A stretch of DNA of 26,520 nucleotides from a virus: positions 1 through 26,520 of the IMG/VR virus record IMGVR_UViG_3300038701_001497; one strand, written 5' to 3'. This document shows, piece after piece, positions 8,713 to 25,903 of this stretch. The position numbers were made by a program, and so were the translations under genes. Within the stretch, counting starts at the first letter, position 1, and every line of letters begins with the position of its first letter. Under the pieces are notes generated by a model. The model was not told the DNA's origin. It saw nothing but the letters and a program-made list of their open reading frames with translations, and ran no database searches.

Positions 8713-11007
8713 ATGTCCCGTGCCGCGCCGATCCAGAACAACTTCAACGGCGGTGAAGTTACCGATCTCATATACGGGCGCCCGGATCTCGACAAGTACG
8801 GGACGGGACTGGCGACCTGTCTGAATTTCATCCCGCTCATCCAGGGGCCGGTCGAGCGGCGCCCCGGTACCGGCCACATCGTCGAGGTGAAGGACAGCAG
8901 TAAAGCGGTGCGGGTGGTGCGGTTCGAGTTTTCGACCGAACAGGCCTACATCCTCGAGTTCGGCGACCAGTACGTCCGGTTCATCAAGAACCGGGGGCAG
9001 ATCATATCGGGCACCGCCGTGGAATTGGCGACGACGTATCTCGAAGCAGACCTGTTCCAGCTTCAGTTCTCGCAAAGTGCCGACGTGCTGTACATAACGC
9101 ACCCGAGTTACCCGCCCCGGAAACTGACCCGCACGTCTGACACTGCGTGGACGATCACCAATATCACGTTTTACGACGGCCCGTTTTTCAACACGAACGC
9201 GACCGACACCACGCTCACACTCGGCGGCACAACCGGGTCTGTCTCGGTCACGGCCTCGGCGATCGCGGGCATCAACGGCGACACCGGTTTCCAGACGACG
9301 GACGTCGGCCGGCTCATCCGCTGGGAAGACCCGGCGGGGAACTGGACGTATCTGACGATCACGGCGCGCACCAGCACGACGGTGGTCACCGCTGCTATCG
9401 ACGGCCCCGACGCTTCGGCGACCACAGCCACGACGGTGTGGCGCCTCGGGGTCTGGTCGGAGACCACCGGGTACCCCGCCGCTTCGACTTTTCACAAGAA
9501 CCGCTTGGCGTTCGGCGGCGCGACTGACACTCCCCAGCGGGTAGACCTCAGCCGCACCGGCGATTTTGAGAACTTCGCGCCCACGGACCTGGACGGCACT
9601 GTTCTCGACGACAACGCCGCCACCACGGACCTGTCCGCGGACACCGTGAACTCCATCCGCTGGATGGAGGACGATGAGAAAGGTCTCGTCGTGGGGACCG
9701 TCGGGGGTGAATGGGTTGTCCGTCCAGACGATAACGGCGGCGCGCTCACCCCCGGCAATATCTCACCCTCCCGCTCCAGTGCTTTCGGCAGCGCCAACAC
9801 CCGACCGGCCCGGGTCGGGCGGGTGCTGGTGTTTGTGCAGAAGGCGCTGCGGAAGTTGAGGGAACTCGCGTACGTCTTCGAGGACGACGGTTTCCGGGCG
9901 CCGGATATGACGCTGGTTGCGGAGCATATCACTGGGTCCGGGGTTGTTCAGCTTGCCTACCAGGCCGAACCCCAGAGCATCGTGTGGATGTGCCTGACCG
10001 ACGGCACTCTTATCGGGATGACCTACGACCGCGACCAGCAGGTGTTGGGCTTCCACAGGCACACTCTGGGGGGTTACAGCGATGCCTACAGCAATGCCGC
10101 GGCGAAGGTCGAGAGTGTTGCTGTGATCCCCAACCCAACAGGGACGGCCGACGAATTGTACATGGTCGTCAACCGCTATGTAGACGGCGGTACGGTTAGG
10201 TATATCGAGTACCTGAAGAGTTTTTGGGACCAGGACAACGACCTCGAGGACGCGTTCTTTGTCGACAGCGGCTTGACTTTGGACACCCCGATCACGATCA
10301 CCGGCATCACGCAGGCGGACCCGGGGGTTGTCACGACAGACGGTGCCCACGGGTTCAGCGACGGCGCGATCGTGCGCCTCAAGATGCCCTTCGGCATGAC
10401 CGAGGTGGACGGGAAAGTGTACAAGGTCGCGAATGGTACCTCCAACACGTTCGAATTGAACACGCGGTCTGACGCCGACGTGGACACCACGGGATTTACG
10501 GCGTATCAGACCGGCGGGGAGGTGCGCGAGCGGGTCACCTCGATATCCGGTCTCGACCACCTCGAGGGACAGACTGTTGCCATCCTGGCGGAGGGTTCTC
10601 CCGTGGCGCAGGAGGTCGTTAGCAGCGGTGCAGTTACGGTGGAGGAGGTGTCCAAGGCGCAGGTGGGTCTGCCCTACGTCTCAGACATCCAGACACTCCG
10701 GTACGACGCGGGCGCGCGGAACGGTACCTCTCAGGGTAAACTGCAACGCTTCAACCGTCTCATCATCCGCCTGTTCCAGACGGTTGGCGGGAAGGTTGGT
10801 CCCGATGCAGACACTCTCGACCCTCTGATTTACCGGGAGGGCGGGGATGCGATGGACACCGCGGTGCCGCTGTTCACAGGTGATGTTGAGGTTGAGTGGG
10901 ACGGCGAGTACAGTTCGGACAGCACCTTGTTGTTCCGGCAGGACCAGCCGCTACCCGCGACGGTTCTGGCCTTGATGCCGCATGTAGAGACGGAGGACCG
11001 CCAGTGA
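8713..11007 (+). CDS. Tail nozzle / tail tubular protein B-like
   Basis: A 764-residue protein opening with NNFNGGEVTDLIYGRPDLDKY and FIPLIQGPVERRPGT, the start shared by many podovirus tail-tube or nozzle proteins. The beta-rich body includes a long propeller-like middle (KNRLAFGGATDTPQRVDLSRTG, then VGTVGGEWVVRP). Residues about 526-606 (TDGAHGFSDGAIVRL, then VYKVANGTSNTFEL) look like the FCCH fold named from ubiquitin-activating enzyme E1, a small beta domain often inserted in phage tail proteins. The gene follows the adaptor with no gap and overlaps the next gene by four bases (GTGA). It probably forms the distal end of the short tail. Confidence 0.8.
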   Translation: MSRAAPIQNNFNGGEVTDLIYGRPDLDKYGTGLATCLNFIPLIQGPVERRPGTGHIVEVKDSSKAVRVVRFEFSTEQAYILEFGDQYVRFIKNRGQIISGTAVELATTYLEADLFQLQFSQSADVLYITHPSYPPRKLTRTSDTAWTITNITFYDGPFFNTNATDTTLTLGGTTGSVSVTASAIAGINGDTGFQTTDVGRLIRWEDPAGNWTYLTITARTSTTVVTAAIDGPDASATTATTVWRLGVWSETTGYPAASTFHKNRLAFGGATDTPQRVDLSRTGDFENFAPTDLDGTVLDDNAATTDLSADTVNSIRWMEDDEKGLVVGTVGGEWVVRPDDNGGALTPGNISPSRSSAFGSANTRPARVGRVLVFVQKALRKLRELAYVFEDDGFRAPDMTLVAEHITGSGVVQLAYQAEPQSIVWMCLTDGTLIGMTYDRDQQVLGFHRHTLGGYSDAYSNAAAKVESVAVIPNPTGTADELYMVVNRYVDGGTVRYIEYLKSFWDQDNDLEDAFFVDSGLTLDTPITITGITQADPGVVTTDGAHGFSDGAIVRLKMPFGMTEVDGKVYKVANGTSNTFELNTRSDADVDTTGFTAYQTGGEVRERVTSISGLDHLEGQTVAILAEGSPVAQEVVSSGAVTVEEVSKAQVGLPYVSDIQTLRYDAGARNGTSQGKLQRFNRLIIRLFQTVGGKVGPDADTLDPLIYREGGDAMDTAVPLFTGDVEVEWDGEYSSDSTLLFRQDQPLPATVLALMPHVETEDRQ

Positions 11008-11432
11008 ATATAATCGAGTACAAACCGGCGCACCTCCAGTCGATCGATTTGCAGGAGGGGCAGGCGTACCTCTCCAGCTGGGTCACACCCGACCTGGCCG
11101 AGGCGCTGGGCCGGTCGGGTTGGGCGTACACCGGCATGGACGGCGACACCCCGGTGGGGTGTGCAGGCGTCATCAACGTGTGGCAGGGCCGCGGGATCTG
11201 CTGGGCTTACCTGTCCGCGTCCCTGTCGTCGCACAGGTTTCTCGAGGTCCACCGGGCGGTGTCCAGGTTCCTCGAGACCTGTTACGTGCAGCGTCTCGAG
11301 ATGACTGTCGATTGCGATTTTGAGCAGGGACACCGTTGGGCAGAGATGTTAGGTTTCGAGATGGAAGCCGAGCGTATGCAAGCTTACCGACCTGACGGTG
11401 GCGACTGCGCGCTGTACGCGAGGGTCTTATGA
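11004..11432 (+). CDS. GNAT-like protein, T7 gp13-type
   Basis: A 142-residue protein, starting at the GTG that overlaps the nozzle stop (GTGA). The acetyltransferase-like fold is suggested by LAEALGRSGWAYTGMDGDTPVGCAGVI, the CWAYLSASL strand, and the late DCDFEQGHRWAEMLGFEMEA helix-strand that ends many GNAT proteins. T7 gp13 is a related small protein in the same place, needed for virion assembly. No classic Q/R-x-x-G-x-G/A acetyl-CoA loop is obvious, so it may have kept only the fold. A longer upstream start in the same frame exists, but it would overlap the nozzle gene heavily. Confidence 0.65.
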   Translation: MNIIEYKPAHLQSIDLQEGQAYLSSWVTPDLAEALGRSGWAYTGMDGDTPVGCAGVINVWQGRGICWAYLSASLSSHRFLEVHRAVSRFLETCYVQRLEMTVDCDFEQGHRWAEMLGFEMEAERMQAYRPDGGDCALYARVL

Positions 11433-11923
11433 CCGGTGTTGAAATTGCTCTTATCGCTGGCATTGCCATCTCGGCGGCGGGTGCCTTATCTGCGGGAGCC
11501 GCGGCCAAGCGAAAAGGTGACTATGATGAGGCTGTCGGCAAGGTAAACGCCAAGGTTATCCGTCGCGACGCGGCGGAGAACGCGCGCCGGCAGGAGCGCA
11601 TCAACCGCAAGCACATCTCCACCTACCGCAACGCCGAGACGGTGTCGCTGGATCTCCTCGAGGATAACATCCGCGAGGCCAAGTTGATGGAACTGGATAC
11701 CATCCACAGAGGTGAGGTGCGCGCTCTCGGTGCCGAAGCCGGGGCGGGTCTCGCCAAGATGCAGGGCGAGGCCGGGCAGCAGGCGGGGTACTTCAGCGCG
11801 GCGGGTTCTCTCCTGAAGGGGGCCGGGTCCGTAGGAGGCTCCAGTTCCTTCAGCGGTACTCCTTCCGCGACCGGCTACGACAATACGGGCCAGACCCTCG
11901 CGTCTGGTTCCTACGGGTGGTAA
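11429..11923 (+). CDS. Internal virion protein B-like (T7 gp14 type)
   Basis: A 164-residue protein with one N-terminal hydrophobic helix (residues 5-25, rich in A, I and G), then a long charged helical region (NAKVIRRDAAENARRQERINRKH) and a small-residue, glycine/serine-rich C-terminus. This plan matches gp14-like ejection proteins, which leave the virion first and insert in the outer membrane. The start overlaps the upstream stop (ATGA). Position between the GNAT-like protein and the large internal proteins supports the call. Confidence 0.7.
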   Translation: MTGVEIALIAGIAISAAGALSAGAAAKRKGDYDEAVGKVNAKVIRRDAAENARRQERINRKHISTYRNAETVSLDLLEDNIREAKLMELDTIHRGEVRALGAEAGAGLAKMQGEAGQQAGYFSAAGSLLKGAGSVGGSSSFSGTPSATGYDNTGQTLASGSYGW

Positions 11924-11926
11924 AGC

Positions 11927-14245
11927 ATGCCTAAGATGGATATCAACGCGGCACCCAACGTCAACAGCGAGGGCGCCACGAGATTGGCCCCCGCCGGCGC
12001 GTTCAGCGGGGCGGGTCGCGGCTTGCAGCAGGCAGGCGCGGATATCTCGGCTTTCGGCATGGATCTCAAGCGGCAGGATGAGAAAGAGCAGCGCGAGGCC
12101 AAAATCGAGGCAGAGAAGGCCAAGCGCAACGCTGACCGGCTCGTGGCGCTGGACATCCAGAAGAAGATAATCGACGGCGAAGCCGAACTGACCGAGAAAC
12201 AGCTGCAATTGAGGCAGACGATGCCGCCGGGGGCCGCCGGTTACACCGAAGCTGTGTCCGAGATGGTGCGCGAATACAACCAGGGCTTCGCCGAGAATTT
12301 CGGGGACGTATCCCCGGAGAACCGGGGCGTTATGCAGGTCAGTCTCGCCCGGGTTCGCGCGCGCATGATCAAGGGCGCCGCGCTGTACCAGGCGGACGAG
12401 CAGGCCAAAAAGTCCGTGGCCGACTACACGGACGGCGTCGGGAAAATCCAGACGATGCTGCGCGGCGGCTTTATGGACCTGGAGACGGCCACAGAGCGGG
12501 CGACCATGTTGCTCGACGCCTCCGGCATACCGCCCAAGGACGCAGTGAAACTGCAACGCGCGTTTATCAGCACCTTCGCCGCGACCGATATCGAGCGGGA
12601 ACTCGACGATGCGGACACGGTGCAGGAGACCGCGGCTCTCCGCTCACGCGCGGACCAGCTTCGTGAGGCGTTCAGCCCCGAGATGTACAGTCGGGTCCTG
12701 CGGCAGATCGACACGGCGGAAGACCGCGTCAGGACCACCGAACAGGTGAAACGCCGGGAAGCCATTAACACGGCCATCAAGACCGAGCGCGCCGGTCTCA
12801 ATTCCGACGAGCCTCTCTCCCGCGAATATTTCGACGCAGCCTACGACGACCCCGAGAAAGCTTCCGACGCCTTTGGCGAGTACCAGCGCGCCCTTGAGGA
12901 GGGCGAGGCTGCGCGTAATGTTCGGGGCATGACGGCCCGTGAAACCGCCGCCCACCGCGCCAGCCTGGTCGAGCAGACGCGAGACACCCGTCTCAGTGAC
13001 GACGCGCGGCTCGGGAAGCTGGGAGAACTGCAACGCTTCGACACCGCCGTGCGGTCCCGGCAGGCTGCCTTCAAGGCGGACCCCGTGAACTTCGTTATCG
13101 CGAACGACCCGGTCGTGGGCACTCACCTCGAGGAGTGGCGCGCAGCGGCTCGAGAAGGCGCGGACGAGTCGGTGGTGAACGCGAGGCGCGAGCGTTACAT
13201 GAACAGCGTCCGGTCTGCACAGGTCCTCCGGGGCGCGGCGCCCGACGAGATCGTCCTGTTGCCGCCTTCAGACGTCCACGCGTTCGAGGCGGCGATTGCC
13301 AACGTCGATACCTCACCCGAGGGCGCGACCGATCTCATAAAGCTGTTCACGAACCAGCAGGTGGTTTGGGGGGACGACTGGCCCACCGTGTACCGCCAGC
13401 TGGTCAAGGAGGACGCGATCACCGGCGGGCATGTGGCGTTGGCCCGGCTGGCCGGCGACCCCCGGAAGAACCGCGTGACCGTGGAACTCGCGGTGGCGCT
13501 CGCCGTACCGACGGAGGAGTTCAAGAACCGCCTGCCCGACGGTCAGAAGGCCGTGTCAGACACCGACGCTCTTGTGCGGAGCGAACTCGCCGAGTTCACC
13601 AAGACCCTCTCCGGTCCTGACGGCGGGCGACAGCACCAGATGCTGTACCAGTCCATCAAGCAACTCGCCCTGTACCGCCAGGCCCACGGCGGCGACAGCA
13701 TGGCGGACGCCGTGTCTTACGCGTCCCAGAAGGTTCTCCTCGAGGATTACGACGTCGTGGGGTCTTATCGTGTGCCGAAGGCCGCAGACCGCAACGTTGA
13801 TATGGTCTCCCGCGGCGCTTCGGCGTTCAAGCAGTTCGCGATCGCGGGGTACGCCGACCGTCTGGACGTTGCCTACGGCATCTCCGCCGAGGAGCAACTC
13901 CGGGCGATCGCCTACAACGGCCGCTGGGTCACTAACTCCGACGAGAGTGGCCTTATGCTCGTGGACGAGCAGGGCGGCCCTGTCACTTTGAAAGATGGCA
14001 CGACCATCGCGCGGACATGGTCGCAGCTGGAGGATTACGGAAAGTTCGACCGCAGCACCCGCCGCGACCCGGGGACCGGTCTGCGGACCCCGGTAGAAGG
14101 CGGCCAAGGCGCGGCGCGCGAGACTGTCAAGGAAGTGGAGGGCCTCCCCGGTGACGAACCGGGACACCGTAAGGGCAGCTTCACGGACCTCAAGCTGGCT
14201 CCCCGGGCCTACGAGTGGATGACCCGTGGCGGTTGGAGGCCCTGA
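11927..14245 (+). CDS. Internal virion (ejection) protein C-like, gp15 type
   Basis: A 772-residue, mainly helical protein without membrane segment. It starts with proline/alanine-rich sequence (PAGAFSGAGRGLQQAGADIS), then a long charged coiled region (KRQDEKEQREAKIEAEKAKR, about 46-65). The rest is regular charged helix to about residue 640 and a less ordered C-terminus. Place, size and composition match gp15-like core proteins that extend the tail across the periplasm. No enzymatic motif seen. It overlaps the next start (TGATG). Confidence 0.7.
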   Translation: MPKMDINAAPNVNSEGATRLAPAGAFSGAGRGLQQAGADISAFGMDLKRQDEKEQREAKIEAEKAKRNADRLVALDIQKKIIDGEAELTEKQLQLRQTMPPGAAGYTEAVSEMVREYNQGFAENFGDVSPENRGVMQVSLARVRARMIKGAALYQADEQAKKSVADYTDGVGKIQTMLRGGFMDLETATERATMLLDASGIPPKDAVKLQRAFISTFAATDIERELDDADTVQETAALRSRADQLREAFSPEMYSRVLRQIDTAEDRVRTTEQVKRREAINTAIKTERAGLNSDEPLSREYFDAAYDDPEKASDAFGEYQRALEEGEAARNVRGMTARETAAHRASLVEQTRDTRLSDDARLGKLGELQRFDTAVRSRQAAFKADPVNFVIANDPVVGTHLEEWRAAAREGADESVVNARRERYMNSVRSAQVLRGAAPDEIVLLPPSDVHAFEAAIANVDTSPEGATDLIKLFTNQQVVWGDDWPTVYRQLVKEDAITGGHVALARLAGDPRKNRVTVELAVALAVPTEEFKNRLPDGQKAVSDTDALVRSELAEFTKTLSGPDGGRQHQMLYQSIKQLALYRQAHGGDSMADAVSYASQKVLLEDYDVVGSYRVPKAADRNVDMVSRGASAFKQFAIAGYADRLDVAYGISAEEQLRAIAYNGRWVTNSDESGLMLVDEQGGPVTLKDGTTIARTWSQLEDYGKFDRSTRRDPGTGLRTPVEGGQGAARETVKEVEGLPGDEPGHRKGSFTDLKLAPRAYEWMTRGGWRP

Positions 14246-15975
14246 TGGTCACTCCCTTGATCACCACCGCCCCGTCCAGTCTGGACTACCGGGTGTCCAC
14301 AGAGTTCACCGCGCCTCTGGTCGATGTTCTCGGGGCCGAGGCGTCCGAAGCATGGATACACTCCCCGATGTCGGCCATCGGCCGAACCCTCGAGTTGTCT
14401 CAAGCGGCGGGAGAGTACCGCCTGCCCGAGACGCGCGAAGGGCGCCGGGACGCCATCTATGGCGGCGAGATGGACTTCGTGCAGGGGACCGGCACCGGTT
14501 ACCACATGTCGCAGCAGGAAGCCTTGTCGGACGCGGACGCCGACCGGCTGAAGCTGAAGATACCCGTCTCGGGGATAACGCGCGGCGCGCTGGATATCCT
14601 GATCGACCGGAAGACCGAAGAGAACACCCGTAAAGATATCATGGCCCGCGCGCGAGGCGGTTTTGCCACCGGCGCTGCACGTCTCGGTGTCGGGCTTGGG
14701 GTGACGTTCCTCGACCCGCTGAACGTGGCGTCGGCCTTCGTCCCGGTTGTCGGCCCGGCGCGCGTGGCCACGGCACTGGCGCGGCAGAGCGGGCGGATAG
14801 GACGCGCGGGTGTGCGCGCCCGTGTCGGCGCCACCGAAGGCGCGGTTGGTGCTGCGATCATCGAACCGGTAATACTCAGCGCGGCGGCCGCGGACCAGGC
14901 CGATTACGATCTGCAAGACAGCATGTTGAACATTGCATTCGGCACCGTTGCCGGCGGCGGTCTCCACATGGGGTTCGGGGCCATCGGCGACAGCCTGCGC
15001 CGTCGTCGCATGGGACGCGCAGTCGAGGCGCTGGACCTCGCCGGGCACGAGGTCCGGGAAGAACTGGGTCGGTCGGCAATCTCCCAGATGGTCGATGGCC
15101 GACTGGTCGATGTTGAGGTCGTGGGAAACTTCACGCCGGTCAAGCCGGTGGATCGGCAGATCTACATCCCCGGTAAGGGGGAGCAGACGATCACGCAGGA
15201 CGCCGACGTTCTCGCGCGGACCATAAACCCCGACCTGATGCAACGGTTCGACCGTATCGAGCGGGAGAAAGCGGGGCTGCGTGTCGAGATCGAAGAGGGG
15301 AAAGACGCGCGCGCGGCGCTGGCCGAAGAGCAGGTTGCCGAGTTCGACCTCGAGATCGAGCGTCTCGAGGCCCGGCTCGAGGGCGCGACAAAGCGCAACC
15401 AGAAGAAATTGCAGAAGCGCATCGACGACGCAAACGTGGCCCGTGAGGACGTCCTGTCCTCTGTGCTGGCCCGCGACACCGACAGCATGGCACTCAAGCG
15501 ACAGAAGCTGCTCGCGCTCGACGCGCAGCAGCGTGACATGCTCCCCGAGGTCAACAGGGTGCGACAGGAGGCGCAGGCTCGGGCTGACGCCGAGGCGCGA
15601 ACGATCCCCGGCGAGGAGCCGTCGTTCCGGGTGGAACGCGCCTTCGAGGTGGACCGGGATTTCGACGCGGTCGCAGCTGCGGAGCGCACGTTCGACCCCG
15701 AGAGGGTGCGTCTGGCCGACCACGATGCTGCGCGAGAGGCGTTCGACCGGGTCCGACTGGCGGGCGATGATACCGACCCGGTGGCCCGCATCGACGAGGA
15801 AGCGGCCGCGACCCAGCAGGAATACGACCAGGCGCTGGAGCGCACCGGGCTAACCGACGAGGATATCGCGGGCATGGACCAGGACACGGCAGACGCAATG
15901 GAGTTGGTGGACGACATGACGACGTACCGGAAGGCACTGGAAGCTGGTGAGACCTGCATGGCGAGGCGTGGCTGA
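14245..15975 (+). CDS. Ejection protein with membrane-active segments (gp16-like N-terminal part)
   Basis: A 576-residue protein. ATG 14245 is preferred to an in-frame ATG at 14215 because GGAGG (14235-14239) is five bases upstream and the start overlaps the previous stop. Glycine/alanine-rich hydrophobic segments lie near residues 138-178, 193-217 and 228-247, fit for membrane insertion during ejection. From about 335 to 440 there is a strong coiled coil with many E, R and K (EFDLEIERLEARLEGATKRN). The position corresponds to the start of a T7 gp16-like protein, but no lytic transglycosylase motif is visible. It ends in TGATG with the next gene, which may supply the remaining part of a split gp16. 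Confidence 0.6.
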   Translation: MVTPLITTAPSSLDYRVSTEFTAPLVDVLGAEASEAWIHSPMSAIGRTLELSQAAGEYRLPETREGRRDAIYGGEMDFVQGTGTGYHMSQQEALSDADADRLKLKIPVSGITRGALDILIDRKTEENTRKDIMARARGGFATGAARLGVGLGVTFLDPLNVASAFVPVVGPARVATALARQSGRIGRAGVRARVGATEGAVGAAIIEPVILSAAAADQADYDLQDSMLNIAFGTVAGGGLHMGFGAIGDSLRRRRMGRAVEALDLAGHEVREELGRSAISQMVDGRLVDVEVVGNFTPVKPVDRQIYIPGKGEQTITQDADVLARTINPDLMQRFDRIEREKAGLRVEIEEGKDARAALAEEQVAEFDLEIERLEARLEGATKRNQKKLQKRIDDANVAREDVLSSVLARDTDSMALKRQKLLALDAQQRDMLPEVNRVRQEAQARADAEARTIPGEEPSFRVERAFEVDRDFDAVAAAERTFDPERVRLADHDAAREAFDRVRLAGDDTDPVARIDEEAAATQQEYDQALERTGLTDEDIAGMDQDTADAMELVDDMTTYRKALEAGETCMARRG

Positions 15976-18561: not shown

Positions 18562-19602
18562 ATGACGATCACCACCTCGACCAACCGCGTGGACTTCGCC
18601 GGGAACGACATCACGACGGCGTTCGCGACCGGGTTCAAGTTTTACGCCGAGACCGACTTGACGGTTATCCTCGTCACGGACAGCACCGGGGCCGAGGCCA
18701 CGCAGGTGCTGACGACAGATTACACGGTCACGGGCACCGGCCTCGACGCAGGCGGCACCGTGACGATGAACACCGCCCCGGCCACGGGCGAGACGCTGGT
18801 CATCATACGATCGCAGGGGTACACCCAGACGCTCGACTTGGTCGAGAACGACGCGTTCCCTTCGGAGAGTGTCGAGGAGCAGCTTGACCGGACGGTGGTC
18901 ATGGCGCTCCAGCTTCTTGACAAGATCGGCAGGTCTGTGCAGCTTCCCGACGGCTTCACCGACACGTTCGACACCACCCTCCCCGCGGATCTGGACACCG
19001 CCTCTGCCGCGATCGTGGTCAACGACGCCGCAGACGGTTTCGAGATGAAGACACTGGTGGCGCTCGACGCGCTGGGCTTGCCGCTGTCTTTCGGAAACGG
19101 CGGAACGGGCGCGTCCTACGCCAATCTTGCTGCGCTCCTCGCCGGCTGGGGCATGGAGATCGGCACGGACATCCAAGCCTATGACGCCGACACGGCGAAA
19201 ACAGACGTGGCGAATACGTGGACCGCGAACCAGACCTTTGCGGACAACCAGGTTATTCGTGCGCTCCTGAAGGACACGGCGGAGGCGGTCAACGCCATCG
19301 GCGCCATAGGCGGCGGTACGCAGGACATCGACTACACGCTCGGCCAGTGCGTAACTGCCACGGTGGACACCTCGACCACGACCTTCACGTTCTCGAACCC
19401 GCCCGCGTCGGGCCGGAAGGGCAGCTTCGAGTTGCACTTGACGAACGGCGGGTCGCAGACGGTCAACTGGCCCGCCTCCGTGGATTGGGCGGGCGCCACC
19501 GCTCCGACCCTGACCTCCTCGGGTGTCGATGTTCTGGTGTTCGTCACGACCGACGGCGGCACTACGTGGCTCGGGTTCACCGCCGGTCTGGACATGTCCT
19601 GA
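18562..19602 (+). CDS. Tail fibre protein with T7 gp17-type N-terminus
   Basis: A 346-residue protein. Residues about 8-130 (NRVDFAGNDITTAFATGFKF, then a GGTVTMNTAPATGETLVIIR segment and ESVEEQLDRTV) match the N-terminal fibre domain of T7-like phages, which fixes the fibre to the tail. The C-terminal half is beta-rich (FGNGGTGASYANLAALLAG, then FTFSNPPASGRKGSFEL), probably a short shaft or adaptor end. AGGAG (18550-18554) is seven bases upstream of the ATG. The following beta proteins may attach to it, so this could be an adaptor rather than the receptor-binding tip. Confidence 0.8.
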   Translation: MTITTSTNRVDFAGNDITTAFATGFKFYAETDLTVILVTDSTGAEATQVLTTDYTVTGTGLDAGGTVTMNTAPATGETLVIIRSQGYTQTLDLVENDAFPSESVEEQLDRTVVMALQLLDKIGRSVQLPDGFTDTFDTTLPADLDTASAAIVVNDAADGFEMKTLVALDALGLPLSFGNGGTGASYANLAALLAGWGMEIGTDIQAYDADTAKTDVANTWTANQTFADNQVIRALLKDTAEAVNAIGAIGGGTQDIDYTLGQCVTATVDTSTTTFTFSNPPASGRKGSFELHLTNGGSQTVNWPASVDWAGATAPTLTSSGVDVLVFVTTDGGTTWLGFTAGLDMS

Positions 19603-20270
19603 TGCTCCAGCGAAGTCTCATGATGGCTGCGGGTGGCGTGTCGCCGGTAGAGGTTACTTTTTCGTCGAGCAACCTTCTCGGAACGAACACTTCGACCTAC
19701 ATATTTACCGGCGCGGCCCCGACAGCAACAGCCGACGATGTAGTTGTCGTATGTATAACCGCTGGCGCGGAAACAAGGACGATCAGTTCCGTCACGGTTG
19801 ACGGTAATGCGATGTCATTGGTTATCGCGTCGAACGGTGCCGAGAGTTGCGCTATTTATTCCTACGCTGGATCGACGGACGGTTCCGGCGACGTTGTTGT
19901 GACGTGGAGCAACGGCCAAGGCCGTTGTGGAATAGGCGTTTACGTTCTCACAAATGCCTCAGACACGGCCTCGGATACCGCATCTGACGTTGATACGAGC
20001 GGCGCACTCAGCACGACGATAGATTGCCCCGCAGGCGGCGCTGTTATCGCAATGACCGGGTGTCGAAGCAGTAATGATTCTGACCCTGCCGAGTTCAGTT
20101 GGTCACTTTCTGCGGAAGATTTTGACGAGCAGATCGAAGGTGGAAACGATTTATCCCATACCGGGGGAAGCGAAGAATTTGTAGCCGCGCAGACGAGTCT
20201 TGCCGTGACCTGTACGCCCAACAGAACCTACGCATCGGCCCGCCTGCTCGTGGCCTCCTTCGGCGCTTGA
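19602..20270 (+). CDS. Putative fibre-associated beta protein
   Basis: A 222-residue protein starting MLQRSLMMAAGG, with a Ser/Thr/Ala-rich beta-strand body (VEVTFSSSNLLGTNTSTYIF, then VVVVCITAGAETRTISSVTV) and no catalytic motif. ATG 19602 overlaps the fibre stop (TGATG) without a clear ribosome site, so translation is probably coupled; a longer frame upstream runs inside the fibre gene and is rejected. Base composition is visibly less GC-rich than in the head genes. A receptor-binding or fibre-tip role is inferred from position and composition; family unknown. Confidence 0.55.
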   Translation: MLQRSLMMAAGGVSPVEVTFSSSNLLGTNTSTYIFTGAAPTATADDVVVVCITAGAETRTISSVTVDGNAMSLVIASNGAESCAIYSYAGSTDGSGDVVVTWSNGQGRCGIGVYVLTNASDTASDTASDVDTSGALSTTIDCPAGGAVIAMTGCRSSNDSDPAEFSWSLSAEDFDEQIEGGNDLSHTGGSEEFVAAQTSLAVTCTPNRTYASARLLVASFGA

Positions 20271-20286
20271 CGGGAAATTATAGAGC

Positions 20287-20688
20287 ATGACAGATTACAT
20301 ACACCAGACCGATAACGTTATCGACGTGGCACCGGGGCCGTTGCCAGCCTCCTGGCGAAATGTATCCGGGTTGGAATTGTTGTCGGACGAGGACCTTAAG
20401 GTTGCGGGATGGTTGCCGGTCGTGGACGACGCACCGTCTTTCGACCCGGACCTGCAATACCTCGTACACGTTCTTGGTGCTATGGTGGGAGACGACGTTC
20501 CCGTGGGGGCCGACAGTGTCACGCGCTACTACGAGGTTCGCAACCGGCCCGCGGAGAGCGCGCTCCCCTCTATTCTCAAGCGCCGCTCCCTGTCGGAACG
20601 GGAAGAGATACTCGCGTCTCTCGGTGACGCGTTCACCGCCGAGCAAGTAGTCCTGTTGAAGAAAATCATCAACCTGACAGAAGGATAG
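20287..20688 (+). CDS. Hypothetical protein in the fibre module
   Basis: A 133-residue protein with NVIDVAPGPLPASWRNVSGL, LSDEDLKVAGWLPVVDDAP near the N-terminus, and a charged helical C-terminal part (ILKRRSLSEREEILASLGDA). The short N-terminal part resembles the small tail-attached or fibre-chaperone proteins found after fibre genes, where a (D/E)LK..GWLPV pattern is frequent. It has no signal peptide. It might be a fibre assembly chaperone, but this is inference; the family was not identified. Confidence 0.5.
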   Translation: MTDYIHQTDNVIDVAPGPLPASWRNVSGLELLSDEDLKVAGWLPVVDDAPSFDPDLQYLVHVLGAMVGDDVPVGADSVTRYYEVRNRPAESALPSILKRRSLSEREEILASLGDAFTAEQVVLLKKIINLTEG

Positions 20689-20694
20689 AACTCT

Positions 20695-21243
20695 ATGTCA
20701 AACGTTCAATACGACAGCACGACTGTCGGCGGTCTGAAACTGGCCGAACATGTCAACACCGCGCTCGGGAAGATCGACGAGGCGGGCACGATCAAGAGTC
20801 TTGCCGACAACAGCACCAAGGATGGTGCGTTGAAGGAGATGCTCGAAATCGGTTACGCGACCAAGGTCGTCGAGTTCTCGGTCGGCTCCCAGACGGGTAA
20901 CGTCTCGGTCGGCGATACGCTCACCGGCGGCACCAGTGGCGCGGAAGGTGTGCTGGTTTGGCAGAACGACGTGGGCAGTGTGGCCCACATGATCGTGCAG
21001 AAAGTGTCCGGCACCTTTCAGGAAGGCGAGACAGTCACCGGCAACGGCAACGGGAACACCATGACGATTACCGCCGGTACGCTGGTCACGGCCCCCGGCG
21101 GTGGCGACGGTAAATACCCCGGCGAGGTCCTGTTCGGCGCCGAGGCAGGCTCTGGTCCGGCGGTGTACGACGCGATTGTCGCGGCCATGGATGGCATGAG
21201 CGCGCTCCGGTCGAGTTACTCCGTGCTGTTCCAAGGCGGGTGA
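20695..21243 (+). CDS. Putative virion/fibre structural protein
   Basis: A 182-residue protein. The centre has two similar beta units, VSVGDTLTGGTSGAEGVLVW and FQEGETVTGNGNGNTMTI, the G(D/E)T(L/V)TG..(S/N)G type of short strand repeat frequent in phage tail and fibre proteins. The end (PAVYDAIVAAMDGMSALRSS) is helical. AAGGA precedes the start by about ten bases. It is in line with the fibre genes and overlaps the membrane-protein gene that follows. No enzyme motif. Confidence 0.5.
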   Translation: MSNVQYDSTTVGGLKLAEHVNTALGKIDEAGTIKSLADNSTKDGALKEMLEIGYATKVVEFSVGSQTGNVSVGDTLTGGTSGAEGVLVWQNDVGSVAHMIVQKVSGTFQEGETVTGNGNGNTMTITAGTLVTAPGGGDGKYPGEVLFGAEAGSGPAVYDAIVAAMDGMSALRSSYSVLFQGG

Positions 21244-21653
21244 TGAAAAAGCCCTGTGAAATATGGCACTGGTGGTTGTCGCAGTGGCTTGTCCCCATGC
21301 GCGCCGCCGCCATAATGCTCGGTTGGTTCGCGTTTTGCTGGGCTGCGCCGCTGCTGCCAAACCCTGAGCCGCGGAACGCTGTGCACATGCACCTCGCATC
21401 GGTCATTCCGTTGTGGGGCTACGGTGTCATCGCGCTGGTTGTGTTCATCTCTTACTGGCTGGCGGGGGCATTGGCTTTCCTCGTCCGGTACAGGTGGGCG
21501 GAGCACAATGCACACCTTCTGTCCTGCGGCTTCTGGTCTTTTATAAGCTGCCTGTTCTTCGTGTCGGGGGCGTCTCACACCGGGACCGGCGTCTACCTCG
21601 TCATGGCTATTTCATCCGGCACCTGCTCCCTTGTCACATATAACAGGAAATAA
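21243..21653 (+). CDS. Four-helix membrane protein, holin candidate
   Basis: A 136-residue, strongly hydrophobic protein rich in Trp and Phe, with membrane segments near residues 20-38, 50-81 (long, possibly a tight pair), 92-109 and 114-132. The ATG at 21243 overlaps the previous stop; a GTG three bases earlier is also possible. It is the first of four small membrane-protein genes before and around the identified holin, so a lysis or inner-membrane role is likely (holin, antiholin or membrane-altering protein). The sequence has no recognised family motif. Confidence 0.5.
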   Translation: MKKPCEIWHWWLSQWLVPMRAAAIMLGWFAFCWAAPLLPNPEPRNAVHMHLASVIPLWGYGVIALVVFISYWLAGALAFLVRYRWAEHNAHLLSCGFWSFISCLFFVSGASHTGTGVYLVMAISSGTCSLVTYNRK

Positions 21654-21655
21654 AA

Positions 21656-21964
21656 ATGACTGGATGGCTTGAGGAGCATTTTGTTGGCCCCGTCGCCGCG
21701 ATGGTCTTGTCGCTGCTTGTCGGCGTATTTGTACCGGTCGCGCTGGCGGTATACCGGCGCCGCAAGACATTCGGCGAAGTCCGCGAAAGCCTGTCGGCCA
21801 GTGAAGCAAAGTTTCGGGCGGATCTGATTGTGCGGTTGAACGCCATCACGGAACGATGCGACCGCTTGCAGAAAGAAAATATCGAATGTGAGCGGCGCAG
21901 CGCGGAACTCCTGGTTGAAGTCGAGTCACTCCGGGTTGGGCTTCAGAACATGCAGAAAGGATAG
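21656..21964 (+). CDS. Membrane-anchored coiled-coil protein, i-spanin-like candidate
   Basis: A 102-residue protein with one N-terminal membrane helix (residues 10-33) followed by basic YRRRK and then a long coiled coil (about 42-100, through RLNAITERCDRLQKENIECE). Single N-terminal anchor plus coiled coil is the plan of Rz-type inner-membrane spanins, which span the periplasm in the last step of lysis. Two cysteines lie in the coil. No o-spanin lipobox gene is embedded or adjacent, so the spanin role is uncertain; it may instead be a holin partner. Confidence 0.45.
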   Translation: MTGWLEEHFVGPVAAMVLSLLVGVFVPVALAVYRRRKTFGEVRESLSASEAKFRADLIVRLNAITERCDRLQKENIECERRSAELLVEVESLRVGLQNMQKG

Positions 21965-21968
21965 ATTG

Positions 21969-22400
21969 ATGATCAGTCAAGCAGCCAAGGGACTTGCGGA
22001 GGGTGTCGCCGGGCCGTTGTTCGGGTTGATCGACAACCTGTTCACCTCCGACGAGGAGCGGGCAGCAGCCAAGGTCAAGCTTCTCGAGATGGAGCAGCGC
22101 GGTGAACTCGACGCGACAAAACAGCAGCTTTCCGCCATCTTGGCCGAGGCCAACAGCGACGACCCGTGGACCAGCAGAGCGCGGCCGACGTTTCTTTACC
22201 TGATTTACACCATCATCCTGATGTGCGTCGGCGGCGCCATCATCGGGATCTGGTGGCCGGACCATGTGGCGACCGCCGCCAGCAACCTGACTAATCTGTT
22301 GAATGCCATCCCGGAAAGCCTCTGGTGGCTGTTCGGCGCCGGGTATCTCGGCTACACGGGCGCCAGGTCCATGGACAAGTGGCGGAAGGTCGGGCGATGA
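21969..22400 (+). CDS. Holin of the GTA three-helix type
   Basis: A 143-residue protein with charged helix at residues 25-62, then DPWTSRARP (65-73), a conserved hallmark before the first membrane segment (74-97). A second hydrophobic region is at 114-133 (ESLWWLFGAGYLGYTG), ending with ARSMDKWRK. This matches the holin family described from gene transfer agent release (GTA_holin_3TM, PF11351). It would form inner-membrane holes at lysis time. ATG 21969 was chosen for AAAGGA seven bases upstream. It overlaps the next gene by four bases (ATGA). Confidence 0.85.
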   Translation: MISQAAKGLAEGVAGPLFGLIDNLFTSDEERAAAKVKLLEMEQRGELDATKQQLSAILAEANSDDPWTSRARPTFLYLIYTIILMCVGGAIIGIWWPDHVATAASNLTNLLNAIPESLWWLFGAGYLGYTGARSMDKWRKVGR

Positions 22401-24691
22401 CCTTTGATCTGACATGGAGCGGTGAGAACGAGTTCAACCGGGCGCAATCCCGTGCGGGGGTTGTCTGGGACGGTTCCGCGCTCGGCATGGGTCTGCGCGG
22501 GCCGAACACGTTTCAGAACGGCGGCGCCTGGTCGTGGTTCGGCGATCCGCGGGCGGTTTATTCGGGCGGTATAACGTATGTCGGCTGGACGGACAGCGCG
22601 GCCCAGATCGGTATTTCGAGTTTCAACCACAGCACGGGCGAGCGTAAATCCTTCGTCCTCAAAACCGGGATCACGGAAGACGACCACGCCAACCCCGGCA
22701 TTTGCATACTGGACGACGGCAAGGTTTTCGTCACGTATTCCGAGCATAACGGTGCGGATGTCTTCTGGCGTATCTCGACCAGTGCCGGAGATATTTCAGC
22801 ATGGGGGTCTGAGACGGCTCTAACGACCGGCGGCAACGACAACACCTATCCGTCGCCGTTCCAGACCGATACCGGCCGCATCTATATTTTTTATCGCGAT
22901 GACGGGCACAACCTCGTCTATCAGTACACCGACAACGACGGTTCGACCTGGAGCGGTGAAACCGATCTGGTCACCGACGGCACGGGCAGCGATTTCGTTT
23001 ATTTCAAGATCGGCTTCGACGGAACCGACAGGTTCGATCTCGGTCTTTCTTATGCCGATCAGTCGGGAAGCCGGGAGCATGTCCGTCATGCTTATTTCGA
23101 GGGCGGTACGCTGTACGAGGCCGACGGAACGTCTATCGGTTCCAGTGCGGATCTGGACAGCATCCCCAAGGTTTACGACAGCGACGGCGGCGGGGAGGAT
23201 GCATGGATATGGGATTGCTCTCATAACGGCGGAAACGTCCAGCTTGCCTTTGCCCGTGTTCCGAGCGGGTCAGACCACACCTATGGTTACGCGCGCTGGA
23301 ACGGTTCGACATGGGACGTCAATGCAAGCGTCGTCTCGGCAGGAGAGCCGATCTACAACAGCAATCTTTCGGGTCAGGAAGAATACTCGGGCGGCATGAG
23401 CCTGAACCATGCGGCTGATGGAGAGATGTACCTTTCGATCAACAGCCCCGGCCCCGACGACGCCGCGATTTACAAATACACGACAGCCGATGATGGGGAC
23501 TCGTGGTCGTCTACGCTGGTGCAGGCGGCGTCTCCGGGAAACCGTGAGAACATCCGGCCCTATGTGCCGTGGAGCCTGACCGGGCCACATGCCGATCTGC
23601 CGGTGGTGTGGTTGCAGGGTATCTATCACGACTTCGAGGCCGGCGAGTTTCTCATGGCTCCGGTCTCCGCGGCGGAACTCGCGCGCCCGACGGGGATCGA
23701 AGCGAAGATGTCGGCGTTTTGGGATTTCTCCGAGGCGTCCGGGAATATTGATGAATCGACGCGCGGTGATATGCCGGGGACCGCCACGGCGCTGACATAC
23801 GAGCAGACAGGACCGTTCGGTTACGACGCGATCAGTTTTAACGGCACGACGTCGAAGATCATTACCGCGTCCGGCTATAGCTACAACGGGAACAGCAATT
23901 GGGCGCTGTTCATGTGGATCAAGACGTCGGTAACGTCGGTCAATAATTACCTGTTCGGCGGGCAGAACACGTCGGCATTCTATTCCCGGCTCGATACCAG
24001 CGGGAAATTCCGCGTTGCCTTCGGGGGCACAACCGTCGTCGATACTGGCGATGCCGTAAACGATGGCGAGTGGCACCGTGTCGGCCTGATCTGTGACGGC
24101 GACAACGGACGGCTCAAAGCGTCGGTCGATGGTGCGATCGTGGGGAATATCGCGCAGAGCGTTGCCGGTATGGTTGGCCCGCTGCATCTGGGCTACGCGC
24201 TGAACTTCGGTACGCCTGAATCGTTCGACGGCGACATCGCAGTGCCGGCGCTCTATCTGGACGAACTTCTATCCGATGCCGACGTGCAGGCCGATTACGA
24301 TGTTTTCTGGGACGCCGCTATTCTGGAATCGGCAGTTCAGGCATCCGACGCAGCCGGAGAAGGTGTGACGGCGACGATCGTTGCCAGCCTGCCGGCCAAT
24401 ACCTCGGCCAATCTGACGGTGTATTCCGACACGACGCCTGCCGGGCAAACGCTCGCGGTGGCGAACGGCACGAACGATTTGGATTTTGCGGATATCGACG
24501 CCGCGGATGGCGATGATATCTGGTGGGAATGGGAACCAGCCCGCACCGTTGAGAGTGCATCGCCGACGCTGACGTCTGTTCGCCTGGTCGGCGGCGCGGA
24601 AAGCGGCTCGGCCTCTGCTGCAGCGCCCCCCGGTCAAGTAGCGACATGGCGTCGTCGGTTCGGGCGCTCAGGGGGTTTGCGAAAACGATGA
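22397..24691 (+). CDS. BNR_4 beta-propeller plus LamG lectin protein, candidate depolymerase
   Basis: A 764-residue protein with the start at ATG 22397, overlapping the holin stop (ATGA). Residues about 42-410 resemble BNR_4 propellers: GGAWSWFGDPRAVY (42-55), YVGWTDS, EDDHANPGI (95-102), VTYSEHNG (112-119), and repeated strand-turn units such as DGSTWSGET. The same fold occurs in ulvan-type polysaccharide lyases (PL24/PL25 and relatives), so cleavage of a host surface glycan is possible. Residues about 437-640 look like a concanavalin/LamG lectin (AFWDFSEASG, FNGTTSKIIT, DGEWHRVGLICDG). The rest is a small beta domain and a basic tail. Catalytic residues could not be assigned, and no virion-attachment segment is evident. 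It could be a tail-spike-like receptor binder without activity. Confidence 0.65.
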   Translation: MTFDLTWSGENEFNRAQSRAGVVWDGSALGMGLRGPNTFQNGGAWSWFGDPRAVYSGGITYVGWTDSAAQIGISSFNHSTGERKSFVLKTGITEDDHANPGICILDDGKVFVTYSEHNGADVFWRISTSAGDISAWGSETALTTGGNDNTYPSPFQTDTGRIYIFYRDDGHNLVYQYTDNDGSTWSGETDLVTDGTGSDFVYFKIGFDGTDRFDLGLSYADQSGSREHVRHAYFEGGTLYEADGTSIGSSADLDSIPKVYDSDGGGEDAWIWDCSHNGGNVQLAFARVPSGSDHTYGYARWNGSTWDVNASVVSAGEPIYNSNLSGQEEYSGGMSLNHAADGEMYLSINSPGPDDAAIYKYTTADDGDSWSSTLVQAASPGNRENIRPYVPWSLTGPHADLPVVWLQGIYHDFEAGEFLMAPVSAAELARPTGIEAKMSAFWDFSEASGNIDESTRGDMPGTATALTYEQTGPFGYDAISFNGTTSKIITASGYSYNGNSNWALFMWIKTSVTSVNNYLFGGQNTSAFYSRLDTSGKFRVAFGGTTVVDTGDAVNDGEWHRVGLICDGDNGRLKASVDGAIVGNIAQSVAGMVGPLHLGYALNFGTPESFDGDIAVPALYLDELLSDADVQADYDVFWDAAILESAVQASDAAGEGVTATIVASLPANTSANLTVYSDTTPAGQTLAVANGTNDLDFADIDAADGDDIWWEWEPARTVESASPTLTSVRLVGGAESGSASAAAPPGQVATWRRRFGRSGGLRKR

Positions 24692-24963
24692 CCCCGCTCA
24701 AGCTGATAGCCATCATCATTGCGTCTCTCGGCGGCACCGGCGGGGTGTACGCTACCGCCGATCATTTCGGATTCCGCCCGGCGTATATCATGGAAGTGCG
24801 CGAGGTTAAGCAGGGCTTGACGCAGATCGCGGTCAACGTCGATTGGGTGCGGCTGGAAAATTACGAGCGTCTCCTGGACCGGGGCGGCAAGCTGTCCCGC
24901 CGGGAGTGCGCCGAGTACCGGAAGATCGCAAAACGCCTCGGGGTTACTCCGAAGGCTTGCTAG
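24688..24963 (+). CDS. Small single-helix membrane protein
   Basis: A 91-residue protein starting at ATG 24688, which overlaps the propeller gene stop (ATGA); an earlier ATG at 24646 would add 14 residues. Residues 4-22 (LKLIAIIIASLGGTGGVYA) form a membrane helix or uncleaved signal. The remainder is charged: a helical segment (VREVKQGLTQIAVNVDWVRL) then LSRRECAEYRKIAKRLGV near the end. It closes the plus-strand late operon. Similar short anchored proteins with a final R.EC..Y..L...L segment occur in lysis regions, but the function is not settled. The stop overlaps that of the opposing gene. Confidence 0.55.
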   Translation: MTPLKLIAIIIASLGGTGGVYATADHFGFRPAYIMEVREVKQGLTQIAVNVDWVRLENYERLLDRGGKLSRRECAEYRKIAKRLGVTPKAC

Positions 24964-25229: not shown

Positions 25230-25433
25230 TTATGACTTGTCGGCGTCCCGTCCCGTTTCGCTGTTGAGAATCTTCGTTGTCCTGTCATCGATATGGGAAA
25301 GGTCGCGACCGTTCTGATACTGAACCTGCCAGGTATCCAGCGCCGCCTCCAGTTCTTCGATGCGGGCCTTGTTCTTTTCGTTCTCGATCGCGTGCAAGTC
25401 GCACCTGCGGCAAAAAGTTCCTTTGATGTTCAT
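25230..25433 (-). CDS. Small CxxC coiled-coil protein
   Basis: A 67-residue protein. C8 and C11 form a CRRC pair, then H14, followed by a charged helix (ENEKNKARIEELEAALDTWQ, about 17-36) likely to coil. Only one cysteine pair is present, so a full zinc finger would need a dimer or His ligands. Its ATG overlaps the TGA of the upstream sorting-signal gene (ATGA, 25430-25433), which suggests coupled expression and a possible shared task. No family recognised. Confidence 0.55.
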   Translation of the reverse strand: MNIKGTFCRRCDLHAIENEKNKARIEELEAALDTWQVQYQNGRDLSHIDDRTTKILNSETGRDADKS

Positions 25434-25903
25434 TTCCGTTCCTTCCTGATAAACAAAACCCCAAGCGCAAGCAAACCCGCCCCCGCTGGCGCTGGCACCG
25501 ACACCGCATCGAGCCAGCCATACGTCCCGCCGCCGCTTTCACCCGGCGCGGTATAGGTGAACGTCCCGTCCGTCTGGAAATTGAACAGCGTCGATAACCC
25601 CTGCGCGAAGGCAAAAGCGGTGAAAGGTCCGAGATTGCCCGCTGCGTCGACCTGGAAGAACGACAGGCGCGGGCCGAAGCTACCTTCCTGCAATGTGATG
25701 CCGTCCCATAGGCCGAGCGTGACAGGGCCGCTGCGGGCGTGTTGTGGCGTGTTGGGCGTGATCGTCTCGAATTGCCATTCGGCGGTGTATCGCTGGTCGC
25801 CGTCCCGTTCCATGTAGAACACGGGATAGGCGCGGGCCGATGCGGCAACGGCGAGCGATGCGACAATGATCGCGGCCACGAAAAGCGCGTTCTTGAATTT
25901 CAT
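25430..25903 (-). CDS. Secreted protein with a VPxPAG (PEP-CTERM-like) sorting tail
   Basis: A 157-residue protein. Residues 1-25 form a Sec signal peptide: MKFKNALF, a hydrophobic A/V/I core, then SARA before YPVFYMERDG. Residues 26-130 are polar, beta-rich and without cysteine. From residue 136 the protein ends with VPAPAG, a short hydrophobic run (AGLLALGVLFI) and the basic tail RKERK. Motif, membrane run and basic cluster at the very end are the three parts of PEP-CTERM/VPLPA-CTERM signals, which exosortases process for surface display or export. The tail is slightly short. GGAGGG precedes the ATG by nine bases. No exosortase gene is in the window, so host enzyme would be used. The core has no recognised function. 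Confidence 0.7.
   Translation of the reverse strand: MKFKNALFVAAIIVASLAVAASARAYPVFYMERDGDQRYTAEWQFETITPNTPQHARSGPVTLGLWDGITLQEGSFGPRLSFFQVDAAGNLGPFTAFAFAQGLSTLFNFQTDGTFTYTAPGESGGGTYGWLDAVSVPAPAGAGLLALGVLFIRKERK

Follow-up and report, generated by a model that had tools for sequence, protein, structure and literature searches.

A holin-coupled propeller protein with a PL25/PL42-like active-site pattern, a predicted surface-polysaccharide depolymerase of a short-tailed phage

Gene content of the window

The window, by which the whole stretch of 26,520 nt is meant and not the propeller gene alone, contained the backbone of a short-tailed phage, with portal, major head and tail tubular proteins, and this backbone was related to those of MW202898 and BcepC6B. 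The features around the propeller gene are collected in Table 1. The short fibre is a possible adapter, and two of the genes that follow it matched phrog_553 (19602-20270, 1.1e-8) and the tail-fibre family phrog_693 (20695-21243, 6.4e-5). The start of the propeller gene overlapped the end of the holin gene in the ATGA at 22397-22400, in agreement with the original prediction, and a second ATGA joined its stop to the start of the 91-aa gene (24688-24963). The original prediction also set the propeller gene far from the fibre gene at 18562, which is weaker than stated, since fibre-like and minor-tail genes continue past the fibre and three small genes only (21240-22400, about 1.2 kb) intervene after the tail module. 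Pfam scans of 19 other window proteins brought up no endolysin family.

Table 1. Features of the propeller gene and its surroundings (residue numbers are those of the 764-aa protein)
Feature	Position	Strand	Basis or counterpart
Short fibre	18562-19602	+	PHROGs: tail-fibre N-terminal domain 1-135, second fibre domain 213-344
Three genes, two minor-tail or fibre-like	19602-20270, 20287-20688, 20695-21243	+	PHROGs
Two small genes ahead of the holin, with TM-like segments	21240-21964	+	First: phrog_8980, function unknown
GTA-type three-TM holin	21969-22400	+	PF11351 GTA_holin_3TM, E 1.6e-21; phrog_3427 holin, 9.6e-32
Propeller gene	22397-24691	+	Single open frame, 764 aa: short N-terminal piece, BNR_4 propeller, LamG, C-terminal beta-rich piece
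Propeller, residues ~45-420	22529-23656	+	PL25/GH145/PL42-like; AlphaFold2 confidence mostly >90
His97	22685-22687	+	Matches PL25 His123, FoRham1 His85
His117	22745-22747	+	Matches PL25 His143, FoRham1 His105
Tyr151	22847-22849	+	Matches PL25 Tyr188, FoRham1 Tyr150
Arg167	22895-22897	+	Matches PL25 Arg204, FoRham1 Arg166 (charge neutraliser)
Tyr202	23000-23002	+	Probable counterpart of FoRham1 Tyr202 (carboxylate contact), by position
LamG-like lectin domain, residues ~483-630	23843-24286	+	Laminin_G_3, E 1.7e-9, C-terminal piece scanned alone
C-terminal beta-rich piece and basic tail, residues ~655-764	24359-24688	+	Low-confidence models, no Pfam family
91-aa protein, one TM-like segment	24688-24963	+	No Pfam or PHROGs family found

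The GC3 of the propeller gene was 0.71, against 0.81-0.90 in seven other genes of the window. Contigs with a 75-80% identical tubular protein kept the N-terminus of the fibre, and none of them gave a match to the propeller gene. Given the siblings without the gene and its lower GC3, it looks like an acquired, exchangeable (receptor-binding) cargo. In contigs L219 and L216 the fibre was directly followed by a protein whose start is LamG-like by eye. A BNR_4 protein was found in none of 49 records scanned whole, a search run without a positive control.

On the opposite strand, a gene at 25430-25903 encoded a protein of 157 aa that starts like a signal peptide and ends in VPAPAG, a hydrophobic stretch and RKERK, a C-terminus which we take to resemble PEP/VPLPA-CTERM sorting tails. 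No match of this type was found for it in NCBIfam or Pfam. It could be a lysogenic-conversion gene.

Domains and predicted fold

The propeller announced by the motifs WSWFGDPRAVY, DDHANP and EHNG, which start at residues 45, 95 and 116, was recovered by Pfam as BNR_4 (PF15892) over residues 60-308, with 78.7 bits against a curated cut-off of 27.3 (E 6.2e-22). The predicted LamG domain downstream was also found, as Laminin_G_3 (PF13385) with 38.4 bits against a cut-off of 27.6 when the C-terminal piece was scanned by itself; in the scan of the whole protein the sole LamG-type match was Laminin_G_2, under its cut-off, and Laminin_G_3 was not listed. Neither a TM-like segment nor a signal peptide was seen in the 764 residues.

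A profile built from 17 relatives (A1) was searched against the PDB, and the first match was the PL25 ulvan lyase 5UAM (1.4e-17), followed by GH145 proteins (1e-14 and weaker) and the PL42 enzyme FoRham1 (8.8e-9). The single protein, searched with phmmer against the PDB, gave weak nanobody, pikachurin and LG3 matches only. The AlphaFold2 model, made with 62 sequences, contained a confident propeller at about residues 45-420 and a poor C-terminal third. The latter, folded alone without alignment, reached a pLDDT of 45.8, so no fold is claimed for it. The first 34 residues were of low confidence and matched no known anchor.

When Foldseek candidates were aligned to the model by VIA-align, 5UAM ranked first, with Z 36.5 over 362 residues, rmsd 2.5 and 19% identity, then GH145 (Z 35.8), PL42 (33.4), Photorhabdus lectins (about 25) and PL24/Uly1 (21-23); Foldseek gave the same order for PL25, GH145 and PL42. 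Structure prediction thus yielded a propeller with lyase and GH145 proteins on top and not bare lectin propellers. From the proposed PL24/PL25 type, the PL25 half stands and extends to PL42, and the likeness to PL24 is much the smaller: PL24 LOR_107, with Z 21, lies under the lectins, sharing the fold and not close. The best match among viral structure models came from Mycobacterium phage PP and is a minor tail protein (2.2e-18).

Active-site residues

The catalytic His, His, Tyr and Arg of the PL25/PL42 lyases were present; a comparison with the catalytic His/Tyr/Arg positions of known lyases had been called for in the original prediction. His97, His117, Tyr151 and Arg167 aligned by profile with the PL25 set, in which His123, Tyr188 and Arg204 are used and His143 is conserved; in 5UAM the aligned residues are chain positions 99, 119, 164 and 180, a constant 24 under the published numbers. 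His97 and His117 are 20 residues apart, and Tyr151 and Arg167 are 16 apart, the same spacing as in FoRham1. In that enzyme His85 is described as base and acid, His105 as helper, Arg166 as neutraliser and Tyr202 as standing at the carboxylate, with Tyr150 also in the site (PMC8377490).

In addition, GH145 was compared, where His48 of BT3686, on the posterior face, is the sole catalytic His and most of the PL-like pocket is also kept (PMC8377490). By profile alignment this His corresponds to Ser56 of the window protein. As the PL25/PL42 pattern is present and the GH145 His is replaced, lyase action of the PL25/PL42 kind is expected. The zinc site of PL25 (His208, His264, Cys266, His278) is not kept at the level of sequence, with no His-x-Cys opposite it in the profile alignment. 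His171 has the Arg+4 spacing of the zinc ligand His208, and its equivalent in FoRham1 is Ser170. Judged from these residues, the protein should act like a PL25/PL42 lyase, and it is not filed as a member of PL25. Lyase activity of some kind is predicted with good confidence, while ulvan, which enters through the family name only, is an unlikely substrate.

Relatives in phages and cells

A DNA pattern for WxWFxDPRA matched viral contigs at 18 stretches, and 11 of these were found to encode a relative at 1e-5; a profile-guided scan of viral contigs confirmed 14 loci, some of them on contigs also found by the pattern. The single-protein scan of viral contigs gave no locus, and 50,697 phage records searched by tblastn with the protein gave no match at E 1e-3. 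Cellular rows of the alignment were drawn from 78 loci kept out of 381 relatives. Rows shorter than 300 residues were left out of alignment and tree, except L024, L117 and L118.

The site was conserved in both sets. In the 20 viral rows, which include near-copies or loci of the same contig (L002/L031, L003/L028, L004/L035, L014/L029, L019/L027, L032/L033/L034, L036/L037), His97, Tyr151 and Tyr202 were kept in 20/20 and His117 and Arg167 in 19/20; in the 90 cellular and plasmid rows the numbers were 88 for His97, 87 for His117, 90 for Tyr151, 90 for Arg167 and 86 for Tyr202. The match of Gordonia phage Nordenberg to Arg167 depends on the alignment, being Arg in one and Ser in another. His231 was in excess in the viral rows (16/20 vs 14/90 in cellular rows), which may merely track the tree and was not used.

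One phage BNR_4 propeller (L003:3951-5075, the same contig as L028:10007-11131) has Arg in place of His117 and Ala in place of Arg167, with the fold-defining positions kept. Going by these substitutions, it is a plausible candidate for a former enzyme, now inactive, that serves as a binder, and propellers of this clade can be maintained after loss of the site. Two phage contigs carried two propeller (BNR_4) genes each, L031 at 9998-11167 and 14422-15348, and L035 at 9992-11086 and 11180-12151.

In a tree of 111 rows the window protein fell inside a group of 12 viral rows (SH-aLRT 91). A second viral group of five rows stood near it, and four viral rows lay elsewhere. This quickly built tree has long branches and open forks. 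On it the viral label changes at least three times, of which the starred branches force one only. Unrelated phages carry relatives that have the same site, and most of these fall in groups of the tree made up of viruses only.

Isolated phages were among them. The protein of Rhizobium phage RHph_X3_2 was matched by 16 Rhizobium phage records, and all six of the Rhizobium phage proteins inspected kept the D[DN]H, H, Y, R pattern, with C-terminal ends LamG-like by eye. Gp19 of Nordenberg was matched by 115 records, and in 11 of these the match covered at least 80% of its length. Among the 40 gp19 matches listed, 10 share residues 1-33 only, a pattern that would fit a single docking piece carrying exchangeable ends.

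Gene neighbourhoods of the relatives

Genes around the propeller gene were inspected in 12 contig lineages. In seven of them a structural gene adjoined it or lay within three genes: portal in L012, spike base and portal in L033, tape measure in L031, L028 and L029, a fibre-domain protein in L027 and a tail protein in L035. Two had structural genes further off, portal and terminase in L011, and portal-terminase and tape measure in L030, and three (L010, L026, L037) had no informative neighbour among those scanned.

Positions in isolated phages were various. The relative stood just after the major tail protein in Nordenberg and was annotated as a minor tail protein in Gordonia phage UmaThurman. 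In Rhizobium phages it was located before the small terminase (RHph_X3_2), between terminase and portal (RHph N3_13), after head morphogenesis genes (RHph_Y60 and N17), after an endolysin and a 92-aa protein (RHph_I3_18), or past lysozyme and endopeptidase genes (RHph_Y3_1). In RHph_Y3_1 (L122, frame from 5692 on) the propeller gene is unannotated and two hypothetical genes are drawn over it on the opposite strand.

Next to the propeller gene, L033 encoded an 89-aa and RHph_Y60 an 88-aa protein, both of them spike base proteins from the Rcc01079 family of RcGTA. The spike base model NF048002 was present in 4 of 24 related records, three of these being one lineage, and had no match in the window record, itself possibly a fragment. 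A Leu-Gly N-terminal motif, as in the head fibre of RcGTA, began 4 of 20 phage propeller proteins and 7 of 168 other frames (p 0.019); as the pattern was picked after the sequences were seen, it serves as a lead only.

In two other phage lineages (L029:7928-9043 and L027:7651-8901) the C-terminal domain of the window fibre recurred, one or two genes before the propeller gene, and the local search found it in no further viral locus. It is a possible partner of the propeller protein.

Proposed function and alternatives

The gene product is predicted, from its residues and its model, to be a surface-polysaccharide depolymerase, most likely a virion-borne spike that would open a capsule or slime layer (probability about 0.58). 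The fold, the residue pattern, the gene order and the recurrence in phages point to this reading, whose predicted parts are activity, class of substrate and place on the virion. If the protein is active, a virion role is probable. The neighbourhoods of the relatives favour a virion protein, though both layouts, structural and lysis, occur. Three points speak against a virion spike: the propeller gene is holin-coupled and outside the tail module, several of the Rhizobium phage relatives are among packaging, head or lysis genes and not tail genes, and the first 34 residues, modelled with low confidence, correspond to no known anchor.

Beta-elimination by these lyase families requires a 4-linked uronic acid, and uronic acids are frequent components of the slime and capsules around bacteria of soil and water. 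The propeller would cut the glycan at such a residue, with Arg167, together with Tyr202, neutralising the carboxylate. The C5 proton would be taken by His97 or Tyr151, which would also protonate the leaving oxygen, and His117 would support His97. The LamG domain may help to hold the glycan. The protein would be made late, together with the holin, and as a spike on the virion, on the tail or possibly on the head, it would open capsule or slime at the next infection. Exopolysaccharide of Rhizobium leguminosarum contains beta-1,4-linked glucuronic acid (PMC1403797), which would suit the relatives in Rhizobium phages. For Gordonia, nothing usable on a polysaccharide with glucuronic acid was found in the open-access literature.

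With the same catalysis and no virion role, the protein could instead be a free depolymerase, made with the holin and released at lysis, which dissolves the surrounding glycan for the spread of progeny. The ATGA coupling, the lysis-gene neighbours in RHph_I3_18 and RHph_Y3_1 and the lack of a TM-like segment agree with it, as does TspA of RcGTA, a spike that comes off the particle and breaks down biofilm (PMC13420450). This is nonetheless rather unlikely, for most phage relatives adjoin structural genes, residues 1-33 turn up by themselves in Gordonia phages as a docking end would, and a BNR_4 protein was encoded by the frame starting right after the holin in 0 of 80 holin relatives, though many of these contigs end soon after. 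A lectin-like receptor-binding propeller, which binds glycan and does not cut it, is improbable: the fold is common to lectins and the L003/L028 relative does without His117 and Arg167, but five of five active-site residues are kept here and the Z score of PL25 is far above those of the Photorhabdus lectins. A GH145-like hydrolase acting on the opposite face is very improbable, since the sole catalytic His is missing, despite the close fold and a sole NCBIfam match to a BT3686-type rhamnosidase (21 bits vs a cut-off of 700). An endolysin role was rejected, as the lyase chemistry needs a uronate and peptidoglycan is not known to contain one.

More broadly, it is a tentative and rather doubtful idea that phages hold their own branch of exchangeable PL25/PL42-like uronate lyases, unlike the usual beta-helix spikes, mounted variously on tails or GTA-type head spikes or tied to lysis operons, with the lysis-coupled copy in the window acting at both exit and entry. 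If true, phage-borne lyases cutting beside uronic acids would widen the depolymerase toolbox, isolated Rhizobium and Gordonia phages would supply testable enzymes, and phage spikes would be tied in with what has been proposed for head spikes and detachable spikes in gene transfer agents. In the open-access literature no description was found of a PL25/PL42-type site in phage spikes, or of its repeated appearance in head, tail and lysis contexts.

Comparison with known systems

The closest known protein is the PL25 ulvan lyase PLSV_3936 (5UAM, 5UAS), a seven-bladed propeller that was the top match by profile and fold and shares the four matched site residues. The window protein differs from it in the low identity (about 19%), the zinc site, the LamG domain, the phage setting and the lack of a visible signal peptide. 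The PL42 rhamnose-glucuronate lyase FoRham1 (7ESK and others) is alike in fold (Z 33.4) and in the site pattern, including Tyr202 by position; it has 14% identity, is fungal and exo-acting, and carries Ser170 where the window protein has His171. GH145 proteins (BT3686, BACINT_00347) share the propeller with Z up to 35.8 and differ in the catalytic His, which is Ser56 here.

Cleavage of surface glycans by phage spikes is well established, and endosialidase spikes are propeller-type phage depolymerases. Propeller depolymerases are a recognised phage class, with 119 propeller matches among 984 phage proteins in the DepoScope work (PMC11326577), and the window protein is like them a phage propeller predicted to cut a surface glycan. 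The accessible part of that description names no PL25/PL42-type site and no BNR_4 family.

Another comparison is with the head spikes and TspA of RcGTA, virion proteins of phage-like particles directed at capsule or biofilm (PMC7296036, PMC10218006, PMC13420450). TspA is described with its active site in a beta-helix domain (PMC13420450), unlike the propeller of the window. The RcGTA spike base holds a capsule-binding head fibre via its Leu-Gly N-terminal peptide (PMC7296036, PMC10218006), and two relatives of the window protein adjoin a head-spike base gene, while the window record is without one. The RcGTA head fibre is described as a capsule binder, whereas the window protein is predicted to be a depolymerase.
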